From Gelidibacter sediminis (lineage in GTDB: Bacteria > Bacteroidota > Bacteroidia > Flavobacteriales > Flavobacteriaceae), in NCBI RefSeq assembly GCF_004364975.1, contig NZ_SOBW01000008.1:742610-806609 (forward strand): DNA of 64,000 nucleotides, in the 5' to 3' direction. Below the pieces are notes generated by a model, which had not been told where the DNA came from, ran no database searches, and worked only from the letters and a program-made list of their open reading frames with translations. Made by a program: the position numbers and the translations under genes. Shown here piece after piece: positions 39,888 to 49,467 of the stretch; the stretch's first letter is position 1, and each line of letters opens with the position of its first letter.

Positions 39888-40703
39888 ATGGAAAAATTAC
39901 CTAAAATCGCACTACCTGTTATCATTGGTGCAATTATCTTAATTATTATCATTGCTAAATCAGCCATAACTGTCGATTCTGGACAGGCCGGGGTGTTATA
40001 TAAAACATTTGGGGGTGGTGTTGTTACAGATGAACCCGCACTAGGTGAAGGGTTTCATATTGTAGCACCATGGAATAAAGTATTTATTTATGAAGTAAGA
40101 CAGCAAGAGATATTTGAAAAAATGAGCGCTTTATCTTCAAATGGTTTAGATATCAAATTGGATGCATCCATCTGGTTTCAACCTGAATATGAAAATCTAG
40201 GAAAATTACATCAAGAAAAAAGTGAGATGTATAAAGAACGCATTCTATTGCCTGCTGTAAGATCAGCAGCAAGAAGTGTTGTTGGTCGTTATACGCCAGA
40301 ACAGTTGTACTCTAGTAAGAGAGATGCGATTCAATCAGAAATTTTTGAAGAAACTAAAAATTACGTAGATGATCAGTACATTCAACTTATAGATATATTA
40401 GTACGTGATGTAACATTGCCGCCTACTATTAAAGATGCTATTGAACGTAAATTAAAACAGGAGCAAGAATCTTTAGAATATGAGTTCAGGTTGGTGACAG
40501 CAGCTAAAGAAGCTGAAAAGGTAATTATTGAAGCTCAAGGTAAAGCAGATGCGAATAAGATTTTGAGTGCCTCTTTAACAGATAAAATTCTTCAGGATAA
40601 AGGAATAGAAGCTACCGTTAAACTGTCTCAGTCTAGTAATAGTAAGGTTATTGTTATTGGATCAGGAGATTCAGGATTACCAATTATACTTGGTAATCAA
40701 TAG
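39888..40703 (+). CDS. Prohibitin/SPFH-domain membrane protein
   Basis: 271 residues: one N-terminal helix (IALPVIIGAIILIIIIAKSAI), the SPFH/band-7 domain (VDSGQAGVLYKTFGGGV; AARSVVGRYTPEQLYSSKRDAIQSEI), then a coiled coil (AIERKLKQEQESLEYEFRLVTAAKEAEKV) and IEAQGKADANKILSASL. This matches bacterial prohibitin homologues, which form membrane-anchored ring assemblies around proteases such as FtsH. It probably forms an operon with the VWA-like gene. No protease gene is adjacent. Confidence 0.92.
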   Translation: MEKLPKIALPVIIGAIILIIIIAKSAITVDSGQAGVLYKTFGGGVVTDEPALGEGFHIVAPWNKVFIYEVRQQEIFEKMSALSSNGLDIKLDASIWFQPEYENLGKLHQEKSEMYKERILLPAVRSAARSVVGRYTPEQLYSSKRDAIQSEIFEETKNYVDDQYIQLIDILVRDVTLPPTIKDAIERKLKQEQESLEYEFRLVTAAKEAEKVIIEAQGKADANKILSASLTDKILQDKGIEATVKLSQSSNSKVIVIGSGDSGLPIILGNQ

Positions 40704-40810: not shown

Positions 40811-40867
40811 ATGAAGTTTATTCAATCACATCATCACCATCATCATATTTGCACTCAAGCGAACTGA
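40811..40867 (+). CDS. hisL: His operon leader peptide with six consecutive His codons
   Basis: An 18-codon ORF, MKFIQSHHHHHHICTQAN followed by TGA, with an AAGAG Shine-Dalgarno-like sequence before the ATG. Six consecutive His codons (40829-40846) sit just upstream of a terminator hairpin and the complete his operon. This is the arrangement of transcription attenuation: ribosomes stall here when charged tRNA-His is short. The Salmonella and E. coli leader has seven His codons, so the resemblance is strong, but the rest of the sequence is unrelated. The chance of an accidental His run in exactly this place is very low. Confidence 0.93.
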   Translation: MKFIQSHHHHHHICTQAN

Positions 40868-40930
40868 AGATGTATTGAATAAAGTCAACATATTTTAAAA
40901 ACCGTTTGAGTAAATCAAGCGGTTTTTTTT
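40817..40930 (+). promoter_or_regulatory. Histidine attenuator: pause hairpin, antiterminator and terminator
   Basis: Three competing pairings can be drawn. (1) 40817-40832 pairs with 40869-40883 over 15 bp with one bulged C, enclosing the His codons. (2) Antiterminator: ACTCAAGCG at 40853-40861 pairs with CGTTTGAGT at 40903-40911 (8 Watson-Crick pairs and one G·U). (3) Terminator: 40900-40909 pairs with 40915-40924, then a T run. A ribosome stalled on the His codons leaves 40853-40861 free and allows pairing 2. A ribosome reaching the stop codon covers it, so pairing 3 forms. Pairings 2 and 3 share 40903-40909 and exclude each other. Confidence 0.88.
40900..40930 (+). terminator. Attenuator terminator hairpin of the his operon
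   Basis: A 10-bp stem (AACCGTTTGA with TCAAGCGGTT, one G·U), a five-base GTAAA loop and eight T at 40923-40930. It lies 33 bases after the leader peptide stop and 91 bases before hisG, so read-through must be regulated for the operon to be expressed. Confidence 0.9.
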
Positions 40931-41021: not shown

Positions 41022-41879
41022 ATGAGTAAATTAAGAATAGCAGTACAGAAATCAGGTCGTTTACACGACGATTCCATGAAACTCCTCAACGATGTTGGTG
41101 TTTCTATAGACAATGGTAAAGATCAGCTTAAGGCGTCGGCCAAGAATTTCCCTTTAGAAGTGTTTTATCTTCGAAATGGAGACATACCTCAATATTTAAG
41201 AGATGGTGTTGTTGATGCTGCCATCATAGGTGAAAATATTTTAGTAGAAAAAGGAAAAGATATTTCTATTATAGAAAAATTAGGATTTTCATCATGTAAA
41301 GTTTCTATAGCTGTTCCTAAATCATTTAAATATAAAGGTATTAAAGATTTGGAAGGCAAACGAATAGCAACATCTTATCCAAATACTGTAACTCAGTTTT
41401 TAGAGACCAACAATGTATCTGCTCAACTGCATATAATTAATGGATCAGTAGAAATAGCACCAAATATTGGTCTGGCAGATGCTATTGTAGATATTGTTTC
41501 AAGCGGCAGTACGTTGTTTAAGAATAATTTAAAGGAAGTTGAAATCTTATTAAGTTCTGAAGCTGTTTTAGCCGCATCACCGATGATTTCTGCTGCAAAT
41601 GAAACTATTTTAAGGCGTTTGCAATTTAGGTTTCAATCCGTATTAAAAGGAAGACAGTCAAAGTATGTGCTTTTAAATGCACCAAATGACAAGTTGGATA
41701 AAATTATAAATGTACTGCCAGGAATGCGTAGTCCCACTGTTTTGCCTTTGGCACAAGAAGGATGGAGTTCTATCCATTCTGTAATAACAAAAAATGAATT
41801 TTGGGATGTTATTGATGAGCTAAAAGCTAATGGAGCTGAAGGAATTTTAGTCTGTCCTATTGAAAACATGGTCATTTAA
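41022..41879 (+). CDS. hisG: ATP phosphoribosyltransferase (long form)
   Basis: 285 residues, the long HisG with a C-terminal regulatory ACT-like domain (EGWSSIHSVITKNEFWDVIDELKANGAEGILVCPIENMVI), which in this class binds histidine for feedback inhibition and needs no HisZ. The catalytic part has LRIAVQKSGRLHDDSM, DAAIIGENIL, IATSYPN and the PRPP loop DIVSSGSTLFKNNL. It catalyses the first step of histidine synthesis and is the first structural gene after the attenuator. Confidence 0.97.
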   Translation: MSKLRIAVQKSGRLHDDSMKLLNDVGVSIDNGKDQLKASAKNFPLEVFYLRNGDIPQYLRDGVVDAAIIGENILVEKGKDISIIEKLGFSSCKVSIAVPKSFKYKGIKDLEGKRIATSYPNTVTQFLETNNVSAQLHIINGSVEIAPNIGLADAIVDIVSSGSTLFKNNLKEVEILLSSEAVLAASPMISAANETILRRLQFRFQSVLKGRQSKYVLLNAPNDKLDKIINVLPGMRSPTVLPLAQEGWSSIHSVITKNEFWDVIDELKANGAEGILVCPIENMVI

Positions 41880-41923
41880 TTGTAAAACTTAACTTCGAGA
41901 TAAGGACAAATAAACGCTACACT

Positions 41924-43207
41924 ATGGAAATCATAAAAAATCCAAAAAGAAATACATGGTCAGAATTAATTAAGAGACCAACCCAATCGGTGGATAGTAT
42001 TGAAGCCACTGTCATCCAAATTTTTGATGATGTCAGCAGAAATGGGGATATAGCCGTCCAGAAGTATACTGCGCTTTTTGATGGAACTGAATCTAAAATT
42101 GCCCAAGTTTCTGAATCAGAAATAAAATCAGCTTGCCAAAATGTTCCTGAAAATTTAAAAAATGCCATTCAAATGGCAAAAGATAATATTGAACGCTTTC
42201 ACAAGGCTCAAAAAACAGCACCAATTAAGGTTGAAACGATGCCAGGGGTAATGTGTTGGCAAGAGAAACGCCCAATTGAGAAGGTGGGTTTGTATATACC
42301 AGGAGGTACAGCACCACTATTTTCAACTGTGTTAATGTTGGCAATTCCGGCACATATTGCAGGTTGTGAAAGCATAGTACTTTGCACACCGCCAAATAGA
42401 AATGGCGCAATTGCCAATGAAATTTTATATGCCGCACAGCTATGTGGGGTTACTACAATATATAAAGTGGGAGGGATTCAAGCTATTGCAGCTATGACGT
42501 TTGGAACGGAGAGCATAGCACAGGTTTATAAAATTTTCGGTCCTGGAAACCAATTTGTTACAGTGGCTAAACAATTAGCTACAAAGTATGGTGTGTCTAT
42601 AGATATGCCAGCAGGCCCTAGTGAGCTTTTGGTTGTAGCTGATGATAGTGCAAATGCTGGATTTGTAGCATCTGATTTATTAAGTCAGGCTGAACATGGT
42701 GCAGATAGTCAAGTGATTCTTGTGTCAAATTCGGAATCATTTATCAAGTCTGTTGCCGTCGAATTGCGTGTGCAATTGGATATTTTACCTAGAAAAGATA
42801 TGGCAGAAAAGGCTATTGAGAATTCAAAATTTATTCTTTTAGATAATCATATTGATGCCTTAGACTTTATAAATGCGTATGGGCCTGAACATTTTATAGT
42901 GTGCGCAAAAAACGAGGCCTTATATCTCGACGGTATTAGAAATGCCGGCTCTGTCTTTGTTGGAAATTACACTCCTGAAAGCGCGGGCGATTATGCCTCT
43001 GGAACCAATCATACACTACCTACAAACGGCTATAGCAGGGCCTATTCTGGTGTAAACTTAGATAGTTTTCTAAAAAGTATGACCTTTCAAAAAATCACTA
43101 AAGTAGGCTTGCAAAATATAGGAAAGACCGTTGAGCTCATGGCGTCAGCAGAGGGGTTGGAAGCACACAAAAATGCGGTATCAATTCGATTAAAAGATCT
43201 AAACTAA
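41924..43207 (+). CDS. hisD: Histidinol dehydrogenase
   Basis: 427 residues, the usual length. GLYIPGGTAPLFSTVLMLAIPA, VGGIQAIAAMTFGTESI, FGPGNQFVTVAKQLA, MPAGPSELLVVAD, and the Zn/catalytic stretches QAEHGADSQV and YGPEHFI...SAGDYASGTNHTLPT. It carries out the last two oxidations, histidinol to histidine, with NAD. The stop overlaps the hisC start by one base (TAATG). Confidence 0.97.
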   Translation: MEIIKNPKRNTWSELIKRPTQSVDSIEATVIQIFDDVSRNGDIAVQKYTALFDGTESKIAQVSESEIKSACQNVPENLKNAIQMAKDNIERFHKAQKTAPIKVETMPGVMCWQEKRPIEKVGLYIPGGTAPLFSTVLMLAIPAHIAGCESIVLCTPPNRNGAIANEILYAAQLCGVTTIYKVGGIQAIAAMTFGTESIAQVYKIFGPGNQFVTVAKQLATKYGVSIDMPAGPSELLVVADDSANAGFVASDLLSQAEHGADSQVILVSNSESFIKSVAVELRVQLDILPRKDMAEKAIENSKFILLDNHIDALDFINAYGPEHFIVCAKNEALYLDGIRNAGSVFVGNYTPESAGDYASGTNHTLPTNGYSRAYSGVNLDSFLKSMTFQKITKVGLQNIGKTVELMASAEGLEAHKNAVSIRLKDLN

Positions 43208-44244
43208 TGAGTATTCAGCACTTAATACGCACCACCATAAAGGCTTTAAAACCTTATTCTTCAGCGCGAGATGAATTTAAGGGCCTAAAAGACAACTTGA
43301 TTTTTCTGGATGCCAATGAAAATCCATTTGAAAATGGTGTCAATCGGTATCCAGATCCTCAACAGCAAAGGTTAAAACTTTTGTTGTCTGAGATGAAAAA
43401 TGTACAACCAGAACAAATTCTCTTGGGCAATGGCAGTGATGAAGTTTTGGATTTATTAATAAGAATGTTCTGTGAGCCCAATCAAGACAATATTATCATA
43501 CTACCACCAACCTATGGAATGTATGAGGTTTTGGCAGATATTAATGCCGTTAAAACCATTAAAGTCAATTTATCAGCCAGCTCTTTTCAACCGCAACTAT
43601 CTGACATATTAGAGCGTGCAAATGAATATAGTAAAATTTTGTTTTTGTGCTCTCCTAATAATCCAACTGGAAATAGTTTTGAAGCTTCAACAATAGAGAG
43701 TTTGTTAAGAACATTTAAGGGTATCGTAGTTATCGATGAAGCTTATATTGACTTTTCAAATAAAGAAAGCTGGTTGTCTCAGCTGCATAACTTTCCAAAT
43801 CTTGTCATTACGCAAACCCTGTCTAAAGCATATGGCATGGCTGGGATACGGTTGGGAATGTGTTTTGCTTCCACTGAAATAATTTCTACTCTAAATAAAA
43901 TAAAGGCGCCTTATAATATTAATGAACTCACGCAAAAAAAGGCACTTGAAGGGCTCCGTAAACACTCAGCCCTAAAAGAGCAAATTGCATCTATTTTAAC
44001 TGAAAGAAGTACCTTGGCTGAAGCATTGGACCATCTGCCGTATGTTGAAAAAATATTTCCTACTGACGCCAATTTTATAATGGCTAAAGTTGATGATGCC
44101 AACCAGCGTTATCAGCAATTAATTGAGAAAGGCGTTGTAATTCGGAATAGAACTTCACAACCATTATGTGAAAATTGTTTGCGATTTACAATAGGCACTA
44201 ATGAAGAAAATAGGCGCTTGGTGCAAATATTAAAAACCTTATAA
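43207..44244 (+). CDS. hisC: Histidinol-phosphate aminotransferase
   Basis: 345 residues, fold-type I PLP aminotransferase. It starts after TAATG coupling to hisD. Motifs: [59 protein letters not shown] and the Schiff-base Lys in [17 protein letters not shown]; the substrate Arg is in [14 protein letters not shown]. It converts imidazole-acetol phosphate to histidinol phosphate. Confidence 0.96.
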
Positions 44245-44255
44245 GAGTTAATAAA

Positions 44256-45377
44256 ATGAAGAAAAAAGTATTATTTATAGATCGTGATGGCACTATAATT
44301 ATAGAGCCAGAAGATTATCAAATTGACGGTTTTGACAAGTTGCAATTTTACCCTAAAGTATTTCAATATTTAGGGAAGATAGCGCGAGAGTTGGATTATG
44401 AACTAGTGATGGTTACAAATCAGGACGGACTAGGTACAGATTCATTCCCTGAAAACACATTCTGGCCGGTTCATAATTTTATGGTGCAAACATTCCAATC
44501 TGAAGGTATTGTTTTTAATGAGCAATTCATTGATCGAACATTTGATGAGGACAATGCCCCTACAAGGAAGCCAAGAACAGGGTTGTTAACGCCATATTTT
44601 TCTGATACTTATGATTTGGAAAACTCATTTGTAATTGGAGACCGTTTAACTGATGTCGAATTGGCCAAAAACCTTGGAGCAAAAGGGATTTTCATAAATA
44701 AGTCCAATAAAAATGAACCCTCAACGGACAAATTACGTAAGTACATTGCACTTGAGTCTACAGATTGGGAAGAAATCTATAATTTTCTTAAAACAGAAGA
44801 TCGCACTGCAGGTTTAAATAGAAATACGAATGAAACGAAAATTGCTATCCATCTAAATCTCGATGGATCTGGAAAAAGCAATATTGGTACAGGTATAGCT
44901 TTTTTTGACCATATGTTAGATCAAATTGCGCGTCATGGTCAATTGGATTTAGACATTAAGGTCAATGGTGATTTGGAAGTGGATGAGCATCATACAATTG
45001 AGGATACGGGAATTGCCTTAGGAGAAGTTTTTTCGAAGGCTTTAGGAAATAAATTAGGTGTTGAGCGTTATGGGTTCTGTTTGCCTATGGACGATTGTCT
45101 CGCTCAAGTGGCTATAGATTTTGGTGGGCGAAATTGGTTGGTGTGGGATGCCGAATTTAAACGGGAAATGATAGGGAAAATGCCTACCGAAATGTTCTTT
45201 CATTTCTTTAAATCCTTTACAGACGGGGCAAAGTGTAATTTGAATATTAAAGCAGAGGGCGTGAATGAACATCATAAAATTGAAGCTATTTTTAAGGCCT
45301 TCGCCAAATCCATTAAGATGGCTATTAAACGCGATTTGGACAAAATGATTCTCCCGTCCACAAAAGGTGTTTTATAA
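44256..45377 (+). CDS. hisB: Bifunctional histidinol-phosphatase / imidazoleglycerol-phosphate dehydratase
   Basis: 373 residues with both domains. The N-terminal HAD phosphatase has [14 protein letters not shown] (nucleophile Asp), [14 protein letters not shown] and [18 protein letters not shown]. The C-terminal dehydratase domain has [28 protein letters not shown] and [16 protein letters not shown] (Mn-binding His clusters). This fused form is shared with enterobacteria and Bacteroidota. Confidence 0.97.
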
Positions 45378-45450
45378 AATAATGATCAGCTAAATTTAAC
45401 TCTATAAAAAATTTCCATTTAAAGCGGATTCAGATCAATAAAAAGACATT

Positions 45451-46032
45451 ATGAATATAGTAATAATAGATTACGGAGCCGGTAATACCAAGAGTGTACA
45501 ATTTGCTTGTCATCGGTTGGGTTTTAGTCCCGTGCTCAGTAATGATAAAGATGTTATACGCTTAGCTGATAAAGTCATTTTTCCGGGAGTAGGCCAGGCC
45601 AGTAATGCTATGCAAATGCTAAAGAAAAGTGGTTTGGATAGTGTTATACCTACACTTACTCAACCAGTATTAGGCATCTGTTTGGGGATGCAATTATTGT
45701 GTAATACTACAGAAGAAGGCCATACACAGGGCTTGGGGGTTTTTGATGTAGCGGTGAAGCGGTTTTCAAACACACTCAAGGTACCTCAAATGGGTTGGAA
45801 TACCATTTTCAGTTTGGAATCTAATCTTTTTCTAGGCTTAAAAAATGATGCTTATATGTATCTTGTACACAGTTATTATGCAGAAATCTGTGAGCACACC
45901 ATATCACAGACAAATTACGGCCTAAACTATAGTTCTGCCCTAAAACGTGACAATTTTTATGGTGTACAATTTCATCCTGAAAAGAGTAGTACTGAGGGTG
46001 CTCAAATATTGAATAATTTTTTAACGTTATAA
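45451..46032 (+). CDS. hisH: Imidazole glycerol phosphate synthase, glutaminase subunit
   Basis: 193 residues, class I glutamine amidotransferase: [15 protein letters not shown], the oxyanion strand [14 protein letters not shown], the nucleophile Cys in [12 protein letters not shown] and the His-Glu in [11 protein letters not shown]. It feeds ammonia to HisF. It is separated from hisB by 73 bases and from hisA by 1 base. Confidence 0.97.
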
Positions 46033-46033
46033 G

Positions 46034-46768
46034 ATGAGAATAATACCAGCAATAGATATTATAGATGGGAAATGTGTACGCCTAACAAAAGGAGATTATA
46101 CGACTAAAAAAATATATAATGAAAACCCATTGGAGGTTGCCAAACAGTTTGAAGCTTCAGGTATTGAATATTTACATTTAGTCGATTTAGATGGCGCCAA
46201 GGCTAAACATATAGTGAATTATAAGGTCTTGGAGCAAATTGCTTCAAAAACAAAACTAAAAATTGATTTTGGCGGTGGACTCAAATCTAATGAAGATCTC
46301 CATATTGCCTTTAATTCTGGCGCTAGACAAGTTACAGGTGGCAGTATTGCAGTAAATGACCATAATACATTTGAATCTTGGTTGGCAAAATATGGTTCGG
46401 CTAAAATTATTTTGGGTGCTGATTGCAATAATGGTAAAATTGCTATTAGCGGTTGGCAGGAGGAAAGTACTTTGGAAGTGATTCCATTTATAAAAAATTA
46501 CCAGCGCAAAAAAGTACAATATGTTGTCTGTACAGATATCGCTAAAGATGGCATGTTAGAAGGTCCTTCCTTCGATTTGTATAAAGACATTATTGAAGAA
46601 TGTTCCAATAGCAGTACAGATCAATCTATCAAATTAATTGCCTCTGGAGGTATTTCACATATTGACGAACTGCCAAAGTTGGAGGCGTTGGGCTGTGAGG
46701 GAGTCATCATCGGGAAAGCTATTTATGAAAACAAGATTAGTTTACAAGATTTAGAACGATTTTGTTAA
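46034..46768 (+). CDS. hisA: ProFAR isomerase
   Basis: A 244-residue (βα)8 barrel. It starts [22 protein letters not shown] (catalytic Asp8), then [42 protein letters not shown] (second catalytic Asp) and [12 protein letters not shown] for phosphate binding. It follows hisH by one base, so translation is probably coupled. It shares the half-barrel ancestry with hisF downstream. Confidence 0.97.
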
Positions 46769-46801
46769 TGCAACCAAAATTAGAAACCAATAGTTTAATA
46801 A

Positions 46802-47557
46802 ATGCTTACAAAACGAATTATTCCCTGTTTGGACATTAAAGATGGGCGCACCGTAAAGGGTGTCAATTTTATCAATTTAATTGACGCTGGAGACCCTGTG
46901 GTCTTGGCGAAGGAATACGCTGAAAAAGGTGCTGACGAATTAGTTTTTCTCGACATTTCTGCAACTTTAGAAGGACGTAAGACGACATTGGAAATGGTTT
47001 TGAAAGTGGCAGAGCAAGTTAATATTCCGTTCACCGTTGGCGGCGGTATTAGCTCAATTAAAGATGTTGATTCATTATTAAAATCTGGTGCAGATAAAGT
47101 TTCTATAAATTCCTCAGCCATCAAACGTCCTGAGCTCATTAATGAATTATCTGCAAAATTTGGAAGTCAATGCGTGGTAGTGGCTATAGATGCCAAACAA
47201 ATTGACGGACAGTGGATGGTGCACTTGGCTGGTGGCAGTATTCCCACTGAATTAAATCTTTTTAATTGGGCCAAGGAGGTGGAAATGCGAGGTGCGGGAG
47301 AAATCTTGTTTACTTCTATGGATCATGATGGTACTAAAGACGGGTTTGCTAATGAAGCGCTGTCGCGATTATCCACTGAATTACATATTCCAATCATTGC
47401 TTCGGGTGGTGCAGGTACAATTCAACATTTTGTCGATACATTTCAAATAGGGAAATCTGACGCTGCACTTGCGGCCAGTGTTTTTCATTTTGGCGAAATT
47501 AAAATTCATGAATTGAAAGAAAATTTAAGGAAGAATAATATTAATGTTAGACTTTAA
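46802..47557 (+). CDS. hisF: Imidazole glycerol phosphate synthase, cyclase subunit
   Basis: A 251-residue (βα)8 barrel. [23 protein letters not shown] (catalytic Asp11), [66 protein letters not shown] (second catalytic Asp) and [12 protein letters not shown]. It pairs with HisH to form IGP and AICAR. 33 bases after hisA. Confidence 0.97.
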
Positions 47558-47650
47558 TATAGATATTATAATAATTTGTAAATCAAAAAATTGAATATTT
47601 CAATAAGTGCTTTTTTCAGTGGAGGTTCTTTTGTCAAATAAATAATTACT

Positions 47651-48244
47651 ATGAATTTAAAATATACTTCAGACGGGTTGATTCCTGCAATCATACAAGA
47701 TGGTATTACCAAAAATGTATTAATGCTAGGCTATATGAATGAAGCCTCCTTTAAAATAACTCAGGACTCTAAAAGAGTGACGTTTTATAGTAGGAGCAAG
47801 CAACGCCTATGGACTAAAGGAGAAGAGAGTGGCAATTTTTTACATGTTTTAGATATCAAACTCGATTGTGATAATGACACCTTATTGATTCAAGTCAAGC
47901 CAGAAGGTCCGACTTGTCACACTGGTTCGGACACCTGTTGGAACGAATCCAACACCTCTAATTTTGGGTTTCTATCACAATTGGAGCAAAAGATCGATGA
48001 GCGTCGCACCAATGCTGATCCAAACAATTCTTATGTGGCCTCGCTATTTGCCAAAGGAATAAATAAATTGGCACAAAAAGTAGGTGAAGAAGCTGTAGAG
48101 GTGGTTATTGAAGCAAAGGATGATAATCATGCATTATTTTTAAATGAAAGTGCTGATTTGCTCTTCCATTATCTGATGCTGTTACAGGCTAAAGGTTTTA
48201 AGTTGGAAGATATTGAGCGTGTACTTAAAAATCGAGAGAAATAG
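47651..48244 (+). CDS. hisIE: Bifunctional phosphoribosyl-AMP cyclohydrolase / phosphoribosyl-ATP pyrophosphohydrolase
   Basis: 197 residues. The N-terminal HisI part has MLGYMNEASFK, TFYSRSKQRLWTKGEESGN and the Zn-binding LDCDNDTLLIQVKPEGPTCHTG. The C-terminal HisE part has NSYVASLFAKGINKLAQKVGEEAVEVVIEAKDD, a MazG-like helix set. It completes steps 2 and 3 of the pathway. It is the last his gene and is immediately followed by a pseudouridine synthase gene whose Shine-Dalgarno overlaps its stop. Confidence 0.97.
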   Translation: MNLKYTSDGLIPAIIQDGITKNVLMLGYMNEASFKITQDSKRVTFYSRSKQRLWTKGEESGNFLHVLDIKLDCDNDTLLIQVKPEGPTCHTGSDTCWNESNTSNFGFLSQLEQKIDERRTNADPNNSYVASLFAKGINKLAQKVGEEAVEVVIEAKDDNHALFLNESADLLFHYLMLLQAKGFKLEDIERVLKNREK

Positions 48245-48248
48245 GAGC

Positions 48249-49025
48249 ATGACTCATTTTTACCTTATCAATATTCAATATTTGGGATTCCGTTATCATG
48301 GGTGGCAAAAACAGCCAAAGCTCAAAACGGTTCATTTGATGATTGATAAAACATTGAATTATGTTTTTGGAGGTGACTTTCGATATAAAACTCTAGCGGC
48401 TGGAAGAACAGATGCCATGGTGTCAGCCAATAACGCAGCCTTCGAGCTTTTTTTGGAAAAGCCTATTTCAGATTATGCAGAATTTTTGACCCAGTTCAAC
48501 TATTACCTTCCACAAGATATTAGAGCCTTATCTATAACAGAAGTTGATAAGGATTTTAATGTTATACAAAATGCCAAACTTAAGGAATACCTTTATTTGT
48601 TTGCCCACGGACAAAAAGCACACCCTTTTTGCGCGCCCATAATGACCACTTTTAGAGATGTTCTTGATATAGAACTAATGGTAATTGGGGCAAAGCTATT
48701 TGAAGGATTGCATAACTTTAAGGGGTATTGTTCTGATGTTACCGAAAAAGGTTTGTATCAGAGAGAAGTGCTGTCTTGCCAACTAATTGTCAATACAGAA
48801 TTTTCAGCCAGTTTTTTTCCAGAGGACACCTTTATACTTAGAGTGAAAGGCGAAGGTTTTGGATATAACCAAATCAGAATTATGATGGGGGCACTAGTTC
48901 AATTGGGAAGGTATGAAATAACCCTAGAGGACATTTCAAATAGTTTAAAGCCAAAAAGTGGCATCACTATGAATTTTGTCGCACCTGCTTCTGGATTAAT
49001 CCTTAATTCTGTGGTTTATAATTGA
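48249..49025 (+). CDS. TruA-family tRNA pseudouridine synthase at the end of the his operon
   Basis: 258 residues from the ATG at 48249, chosen because AGGAG overlaps the hisIE stop just before it; a start at 48213 would add 12 residues read through hisIE. It has IQYLGFRYHGWQKQP and the catalytic Asp55 in LAAGRTDAMVSANNAAFEL, a late HNFKGYC segment, and GFGYNQIRIMMGALVQLGRYE (TruA: QIR.MVG.L...G). Canonical TruA reads GRTDAGVHA; here it is GRTDAMVSA, so the family is clear but diverged. TruA makes pseudouridine at 38-40 of tRNAs including tRNA-His. Its position suggests a HisT-like regulatory role. It may be a second TruA paralogue. Confidence 0.82.
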   Translation: MTHFYLINIQYLGFRYHGWQKQPKLKTVHLMIDKTLNYVFGGDFRYKTLAAGRTDAMVSANNAAFELFLEKPISDYAEFLTQFNYYLPQDIRALSITEVDKDFNVIQNAKLKEYLYLFAHGQKAHPFCAPIMTTFRDVLDIELMVIGAKLFEGLHNFKGYCSDVTEKGLYQREVLSCQLIVNTEFSASFFPEDTFILRVKGEGFGYNQIRIMMGALVQLGRYEITLEDISNSLKPKSGITMNFVAPASGLILNSVVYN

Positions 49026-49047: not shown

Positions 49048-49467
49048 TCACGTTAGCCATTTGCGTGAAACGGCACGTTTAGAAAACCAAACTAAAAATA
49101 CTGCGATTACGATAATGGTTAAACTTAAAAAGATGTCTCGCGGATTGACTTCTGTCAAAATATAAAATTGTTGAAGTCCAACGGCAAGGAAGGAAATAAA
49201 AAAAAAAATGTATGCCCAACGTTTGCGTAAGAGTAGCGAAATGGCACCAAGCAGACCAGCAAATACTGCAATGGCAAACACTGAGATATACCAAACTGGC
49301 AAGTTAGCGTATAAAGTTTGGTCAGATTTCGAAAGTGCAGATAGCTCTTCCTGGGTCATTAAGGCGTGTGAAAGATAGTTGTAGACACCAATGGCATTCC
49401 ACAGTATCGCTATCACACTTACCACCCAAAAATAGACAGGAGGCTTGTTTAAACTAGTAAAATTCAT
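49048..49467 (-). CDS. Unknown four-helix membrane protein
   Basis: 139 residues with about four membrane helices (VYFWVVSVIAILWNAIGVYNYL; VWYISVFAIAVFAGLLGAISLLL; WAYIFFFISFLAVGLQQFYIL; IFLSLTIIVIAVFLVWFS). MTQEELSALSKSDQTLYANLPVW lies between helices 1 and 2. I recall similar short proteins in many Flavobacteriaceae without an assigned role. It converges on the TruA-family gene (22 bases between stops), with no clear terminator hairpin between. Confidence 0.8.
   Translation of the reverse strand: MNFTSLNKPPVYFWVVSVIAILWNAIGVYNYLSHALMTQEELSALSKSDQTLYANLPVWYISVFAIAVFAGLLGAISLLLRKRWAYIFFFISFLAVGLQQFYILTEVNPRDIFLSLTIIVIAVFLVWFSKRAVSRKWLT

Follow-up and report, generated by a model that had tools for sequence, protein, structure and literature searches.

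What does a TruA-family pseudouridine synthase do at the end of an attenuated histidine operon? The question is raised by Gelidibacter sediminis, in which the window—the whole stretch of 64,000 nucleotides that was analysed—carries his genes spanning 41022-48244, with an intact synthase gene, here named truAh, as the final gene behind them and 4 nt between the end of hisIE and the truAh ATG (Table 1). An earlier note on this DNA had placed a TruA-family gene last in the operon, which holds (Pfam PF01416, PseudoU_synth_1, E 3.1e-19), and had proposed from this position a feedback loop, in which truAh would modify the anticodon arm of tRNA-His, the His codons of the leader would be read faster, and the enzyme's own operon would be shut.

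Table 1. Features of the his operon and its surroundings, in window coordinates
Feature	Position	Strand	Basis or remark
His leader peptide ORF MKFIQSHHHHHHICTQAN	40811..40867	+	six consecutive His codons
Antiterminator segment CTCAAGCG, within leader ORF, over T-Q-A codons	40854..40861	+	can pair with 40903-40910
Intrinsic terminator hairpin, T run after	40897..40927	+	folding
hisG	41022..41879	+	ORF, label by inspection
hisD	41924..43207	+	ORF, label by inspection; relatives have the same gene order
hisC	43207..44244	+	ORF, label by inspection
hisB	44256..45377	+	ORF, label by inspection
hisH	45451..46032	+	ORF, label by inspection
hisA	46034..46768	+	ORF, label by inspection
hisF	46802..47557	+	ORF, label by inspection
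hisIE	47651..48244	+	ORF; product with PRA-CH and PRA-PH domains
AGGAG across hisIE stop	48243..48247	+	1 nt from truAh ATG; unlikely Shine-Dalgarno
truAh, divergent TruA-family pseudouridine synthase paralogue, 258 aa	48249..49025	+	ORF, Pfam, TIGR00071, AlphaFold model, structure matches

The PF01416 domain, the fold and the active-site residues all place the truAh product in the TruA family. Its AlphaFold model (mean pLDDT 90.6) has E. coli and Thermus TruA as best structural matches by E-value (TM to query 0.80-0.84; 22-27% identity in the structural alignments), and with E. coli TruA/HisT (truA, b2318) it has in common the fold, a similar length and the four active-site residues that we checked, namely the catalytic D60 together with R58, Y118 and R205 (E. 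coli numbering), which we take to be active-site residues of the family. These four are invariant in 96 of 96 distinct truAh rows, which were assigned by best-scoring query, are in many cases from Aquimarina and Gelidibacter and include two distant rows (L200 and L201), and likewise in 18 of 18 canonical rows, 17 of them from the same genome and same-order relatives and one from Acetoanaerobium. The two sets differ at other positions, with S at position 64 in 96/96 truAh rows vs. H in 18/18 canonical rows, E at 71 in 89/96 vs. H in 17/18, N at 108 in 93/96 vs. H in 18/18, I at 110 in 95/96 vs. R in 18/18, K at 116 in 96/96 vs. R in 17/18, and Q at 203 in 96/96 vs. M in 18/18. Relative to E. 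coli TruA itself, the changes read H64S, H71E, H108N, R110I and M203Q. Across the family genomes, the motif patterns RTD..VS and GF...Q.R each hold in 96/96, and a third expression in 94/96.

Further differences from E. coli TruA lie in the score, the genomic company and the neighbourhood. Against TIGR00071, truAh reaches E 8.4e-36 and 123.8 bits, below the cut-off of 142.85 for a canonical TruA equivalog; a canonical TruA exists beside it; and E. coli truA is flanked by usg and dedA, with pdxB nearby, whereas truAh lies behind hisIE. FastTree separated 110 truAh rows from 10 canonical rows with local support 100, in a gene tree with 48 of 117 inner branches open and with a long E. coli branch that, under a tool warning, joins the truAh clade. 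Some of the changes recur elsewhere, with VS after the catalytic motif in PDB 8q70 and the Q in Thermus TruA (printed alignments). Since S64 and Q203 occur in other TruA-family structures, the motif changes alone are no proof of a new substrate, and it is I110 and the whole combination that set truAh apart. Judged by its sequence, truAh is a distinct TruA subfamily with catalytic residues kept, and we infer that it would be an active enzyme with a substrate set other than that of canonical TruA.

A tentative but serious candidate, which we put somewhat below an even chance, is that truAh acts on other tRNA positions (such as 27/28), mRNA or rRNA. Eukaryotic Pus1 modifies tRNA positions such as 27/28, and the printed alignments give truAh and human Pus1 in common the V-S after the catalytic motif, the F-N of motif II and the Q-I-R of motif III, the first and last of these being common to Pus3 as well. 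Single-sequence comparison also brings truAh nearer to human Pus1 than its own canonical TruA is (E 1.9e-7 vs. 1.4e-3). Against this stands the fact that VS and Q are each also present in another prokaryotic TruA-family structure, and that bacterial TruA gives the best matches in sequence and in structure, its structures outscoring Pus1/Pus3 by both sequence and fold. Overall, truAh is nearer bacterial TruA than Pus1/Pus3; it is also shorter than these enzymes and has Ile for the motif-II basic residue.

The substrate invoked by the feedback loop is tRNA-His, which in this genome was located through RF00005 and ARAGORN (a DNA-pattern search missed it) and reads G37, U38, A39, C40. A possible TruA target is thus present at U38, and with A39 and C40 beside it a TruA-type enzyme could act there at U38 alone. 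The loop also draws on Salmonella, where, according to one report, tRNA-His has pseudouridine at 38 and 39 and loss of hisT de-attenuates his (PMC4046918). Among the 29 tRNAs listed—an incomplete list with no tRNA-Ile or tRNA-Ala(UGC), and with three of four RF00005 matches without a locus falling inside neighbouring loci—U38 occurs in 3, namely tRNA-His, tRNA-Gln(UUG) and tRNA-Glu(UUC), U39 occurs in 11, and none has both. We also observed that tRNA-Val(GAC) of the same genome (L147 1500-1575 (-), G000:C5:129588-129662) has C33, with the loop TCGACAA, at a position where U33 is near-universal in tRNAs.

The uridine counts would permit a clean division within a subfunctionalised pair, with positions 38, 39 and 40 split such that truAh might take U38 and canonical TruA U39. 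The PDB names eukaryotic Pus3 as a 38/39 enzyme, and Pus1 and Pus3 chains are both matched by the truAh profile (E about 1e-15). We nevertheless regard such a split as unlikely, with the 53 of 149 genomes that have no truAh presumably needing those sites from canonical TruA alone, and with I110 replacing a motif Arg that is conserved in 18/18 canonical rows.

A separate canonical TruA was looked for and found, confirming that truAh is a paralogue: the genome has two TruA-family members, truAh and a 262-aa canonical TruA (G000:C2:4338-5123), which are 26% identical. Across 20 genomes, this one included, truAh is present in 13, and a second, canonical-like match accompanies it in 13/13. Canonical TruA likewise occurs alongside truAh in 26 of 28 genomes (20 in which truAh abuts hisIE and 8 without hisIE), the two genomes with no canonical match being assemblies 82% and 89% complete. 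Seven of these 26 matches cross a stop codon in the aligned stretch (open frames 246-255 aa), which we read as alignment beyond the gene end. A same-order genome (G017) has two TruA-family genes, neither of which is truAh-type by score. The canonical enzyme weighs against the loop, being expected (from E. coli) to make Psi38 already, and so do the fixed motif changes, which suggest another substrate.

The claim that the operon is attenuated was upheld by the leader peptide, the terminator hairpin and the antiterminator pairing, and a genuine His-leader attenuator ahead of the operon is well supported. The 151-nt leader stretch is far more stable than its shuffles (fold z -6.17), and CTCAAGCG resembles the 3' arm of the terminator and pairs with its 5' arm (40903-40910), which locates the antiterminator strand in the leader ORF. 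Like known his attenuators with a His leader peptide, it has a His-rich leader ORF, an antiterminator and a terminator; it differs from them in that its T-Q-A codons overlap the antiterminator strand and in that an Rfam scan of the leader gave no match over the gathering score. The ending (T/A)QA(R/N/S) is common to many His leader peptides of Flavobacteriaceae, and the antiterminator overlap seen for these codons in the window may be the reason for the conserved ending.

We surveyed leaders in relatives by requiring at least three His in 8 codons upstream of hisG, a rule passed by 45 of 1060 shuffles. Such an ORF was found in 22 of 23 loci that also carry truAh (nine from Gelidibacter, the window among these), and, among hand-picked comparison genomes, in 10/10 with truAh far away (from 27) and 19/20 without truAh (from 35 with hisIE only). 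Under a four-in-8 rule (shuffles 3/1060) the respective counts were 22/23, 7/10 and 11/20, so the leaders of the latter two groups are poorer in His. A terminator-like hairpin lies within 160 nt in 48 of 51 leaders, and antiterminator pairing of at least 7 occurs in 41 of 51, vs. 17 expected from shuffling. With the leader present in 19/20 genomes without truAh, the co-occurrence that the earlier note proposed checking yields no hisT-like pattern: leader and truAh are distributed independently, which argues against the loop.

At the junction itself, the AGGAG assigned to truAh does overlap the hisIE TAG but does not stand as a translation signal. Its 1-nt gap to the ATG is too short for normal Shine-Dalgarno use, and with this spacing, and Bacteroidia ribosomes being blind to such sites, we ruled it out as the truAh Shine-Dalgarno sequence. 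Two papers describe Bacteroidia ribosomes that fail to recognise Shine-Dalgarno-type sites and phylum members that are naturally without them (PMC9976891, PMC6847099). AGGA, GGAG or GAGG lies at -20 to -4 of truAh in 2 of 20 abutting genomes, with upstream distances approximate for those rows whose script-chosen start is not ATG (20 of 96, 6 of them abutting). On the far side of truAh, the next gene in Gelidibacter encodes 139 aa (window 49048-49467 (-)) and gave no Pfam match over cut-off; in Formosa maritima, members of its cluster separate hisIE from truAh, and in Winogradskyella jejuensis they flank truAh on either side. Candidate kin are the antisense ORFs, 137-148 aa long, that occupy the hisIE-truAh gap in 14 genomes.

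Among 149 Flavobacteriaceae genomes, truAh occurs in 96 and hisIE in 123, with both in 88, truAh only in 8, hisIE only in 35 and neither in 18. Loss together with the his operon, as for a hisT-like gene, is not what these genomes display, since truAh is kept in 8 of 26 without detected hisIE. The co-occurrence of the two genes is significant before adjustment (Fisher p = 2e-4) and not after adjusting for genome size (p = 0.17), in statistics that ignore kinship, phylogeny entering through the gene tree only; below 2.5 Mb, truAh is present in 3/13 genomes with hisIE and 3/14 without.

Where both genes are present (n = 88), truAh lies downstream of hisIE on the same strand out to 30 kb in 69, with gaps of at most 100 bp in 18, 101-1000 bp in 17, 1-10 kb in 26 and 10-30 kb in 8; of the remaining 19, two have truAh farther away and three have it upstream, while in three it is on the other strand and in 11 on a separate contig. 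Where the gap measures 392-633 bp, an ORF of at least 60 aa on the opposite strand lies within it in 15/15 genomes. Classed by adjacency, truAh abuts hisIE (gap at most 200 bp, no ORF of 60 aa between) in 20/88, is near, further downstream, in 41/88, and is far in 27/88, 11 of which have the two genes on different contigs, such that fragmented assemblies may hide linkage.

On the gene tree, the abutting state takes at least 13 changes, compared with a mean of 18.5 and a minimum of 14 in 200 shuffles, and the linked state takes 16, compared with a shuffled mean of 23. The abutting state is thus clustered on the tree beyond all 200 shuffles, a clustering that a functional link would also predict, and the counts of changes together with the placements indicate an arrangement that is inherited but loose. 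As a control, we took an SPFH-domain gene from the upstream flank of his (window 39888-40703). Of 119 genomes that have this gene and hisIE, 91 place it no more than 15 kb upstream of hisIE, compared with 62 of 88 for truAh within 15 kb downstream: the linkage of this functionally unrelated gene to hisIE is at least as tight as that of truAh. Five genomes have 58-109 bp between the SPFH-domain gene and truAh, an interval that contains neither a his gene nor a leader, and the 160 nt before truAh hold no run of three His codons; hisIE went undetected in three of the five and is on a different contig in the other two.

A sample of 148 genomes across the phylum gave 11 matches at E<=1e-35, nine in the family of the window's own genome and two distant at 32%. 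Carriers elsewhere include Fulvivirga, Persicobacter (on large plasmids), Crocinitomix and Desulfobacteraceae MAGs, whose flanks (10 kb at most, often less) showed none of the query-set his genes except one weak hisB match in L101; these carriers suggest some lateral transfer or misbinning. The truAh-type genes of Desulfobacteraceae and Desulfobacula MAGs (L089, L101, L103), at 48-51% identity, point to transfer between phyla or to misbinned contigs. In Aquimarina, truAh has neighbour clusters of cytidylate kinase, LysM and MOSC genes, with no pathway theme among the clusters scanned.

We also found a promoter-like element, TTTTG...TA(N)(A/C/T)TT(T/G)(C/G), whose pattern was drawn up once the sequences had been inspected. 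It lies in the 80 nt preceding truAh in 17 of the 41 near genomes, where 0.3 would be expected, compared with 1/20 abutting, 1/27 far and 0/8 without hisIE; control stretches further upstream gave 0/96, 1/95, 0/95 and 1/94. Here too, upstream distances are approximate for the rows whose script-chosen start is not ATG. The same 80 nt hold no such element in the two Gelidibacter rows. Visual inspection showed a related TTTTG...TACTTG form in several of the abutting genomes whose gap is close to 56 bp, and not in the two Gelidibacter rows. First promoter patterns had little excess (TANNTTTG, 11/96 vs. 6.1 expected), and the single TANNTTTG match within hisIE, at 47959, means little.

Collectively, these findings make the proposed feedback loop highly unlikely as an account of truAh. 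In its favour are the 4-nt distance from hisIE, the 80 nt upstream in which a promoter-like element was sought and not found, the six consecutive His codons, the U38 of tRNA-His and the Salmonella hisT precedent. Against it, truAh persists where neither his nor leader is at the locus, lies mostly outside the operon (nearby, with antisense ORFs or kilobases in between, in 41/88 vs. abutting in 20/88) and has a promoter-like element of its own in 17/41; and because the linkage of an unrelated SPFH-domain gene to hisIE is no looser and canonical TruA is alongside in 26/28, a dedicated loop is not supported. A local effect of truAh on tRNA-His in Gelidibacter is possible, as is a his-specific feedback loop confined to this genus, to which the comparison lends no support. 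With its own promoter seemingly gone and a few bases to hisIE in some species, an attenuator-controlled TruAh would there set tRNA-His Psi38 and tune the attenuator, as a loop newly built from an old neighbour, an account to which we give very little credence.

We instead consider it quite probable that truAh encodes a competent TruA-fold synthase of a distinct subfamily, an old neighbour of his that in Gelidibacter is passively under the attenuator and has no dedicated role in his regulation. Going by the fixed changes around its active site, it most likely modifies a uridine set unlike that of canonical TruA. The gene would long have followed the his operon, in the same orientation and within an inherited gene order, and in several lineages, including Gelidibacter, would have come to adjoin hisIE directly. 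In that position, transcription from the his promoter probably continues into truAh, which would place the gene passively under the attenuator, and nothing points to a dedicated regulation of his by truAh. Its position within the Gelidibacter his operon is best read as derived, the outcome of change within an inherited neighbourhood.

A precedent for truA beside an amino-acid operon comes from some proteobacteria, in which, according to one paper, truA adjoins trpF (PMC2395257); the two cases have in common a TruA gene adjoining an amino-acid biosynthesis operon, and differ in operon and group. In the literature covered, by title, abstract start and term counts and with most subscription journals outside its scope, we found no paper on a TruA paralogue linked to his in Bacteroidota. 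With its catalytic residues retained and its motifs altered, a second TruA subfamily present in 96 of the 149 Flavobacteriaceae genomes sampled would imply a further pseudouridine site in a large bacterial group, and its his context provides a natural test, with some genera carrying truAh directly behind an attenuated operon and others outside it.
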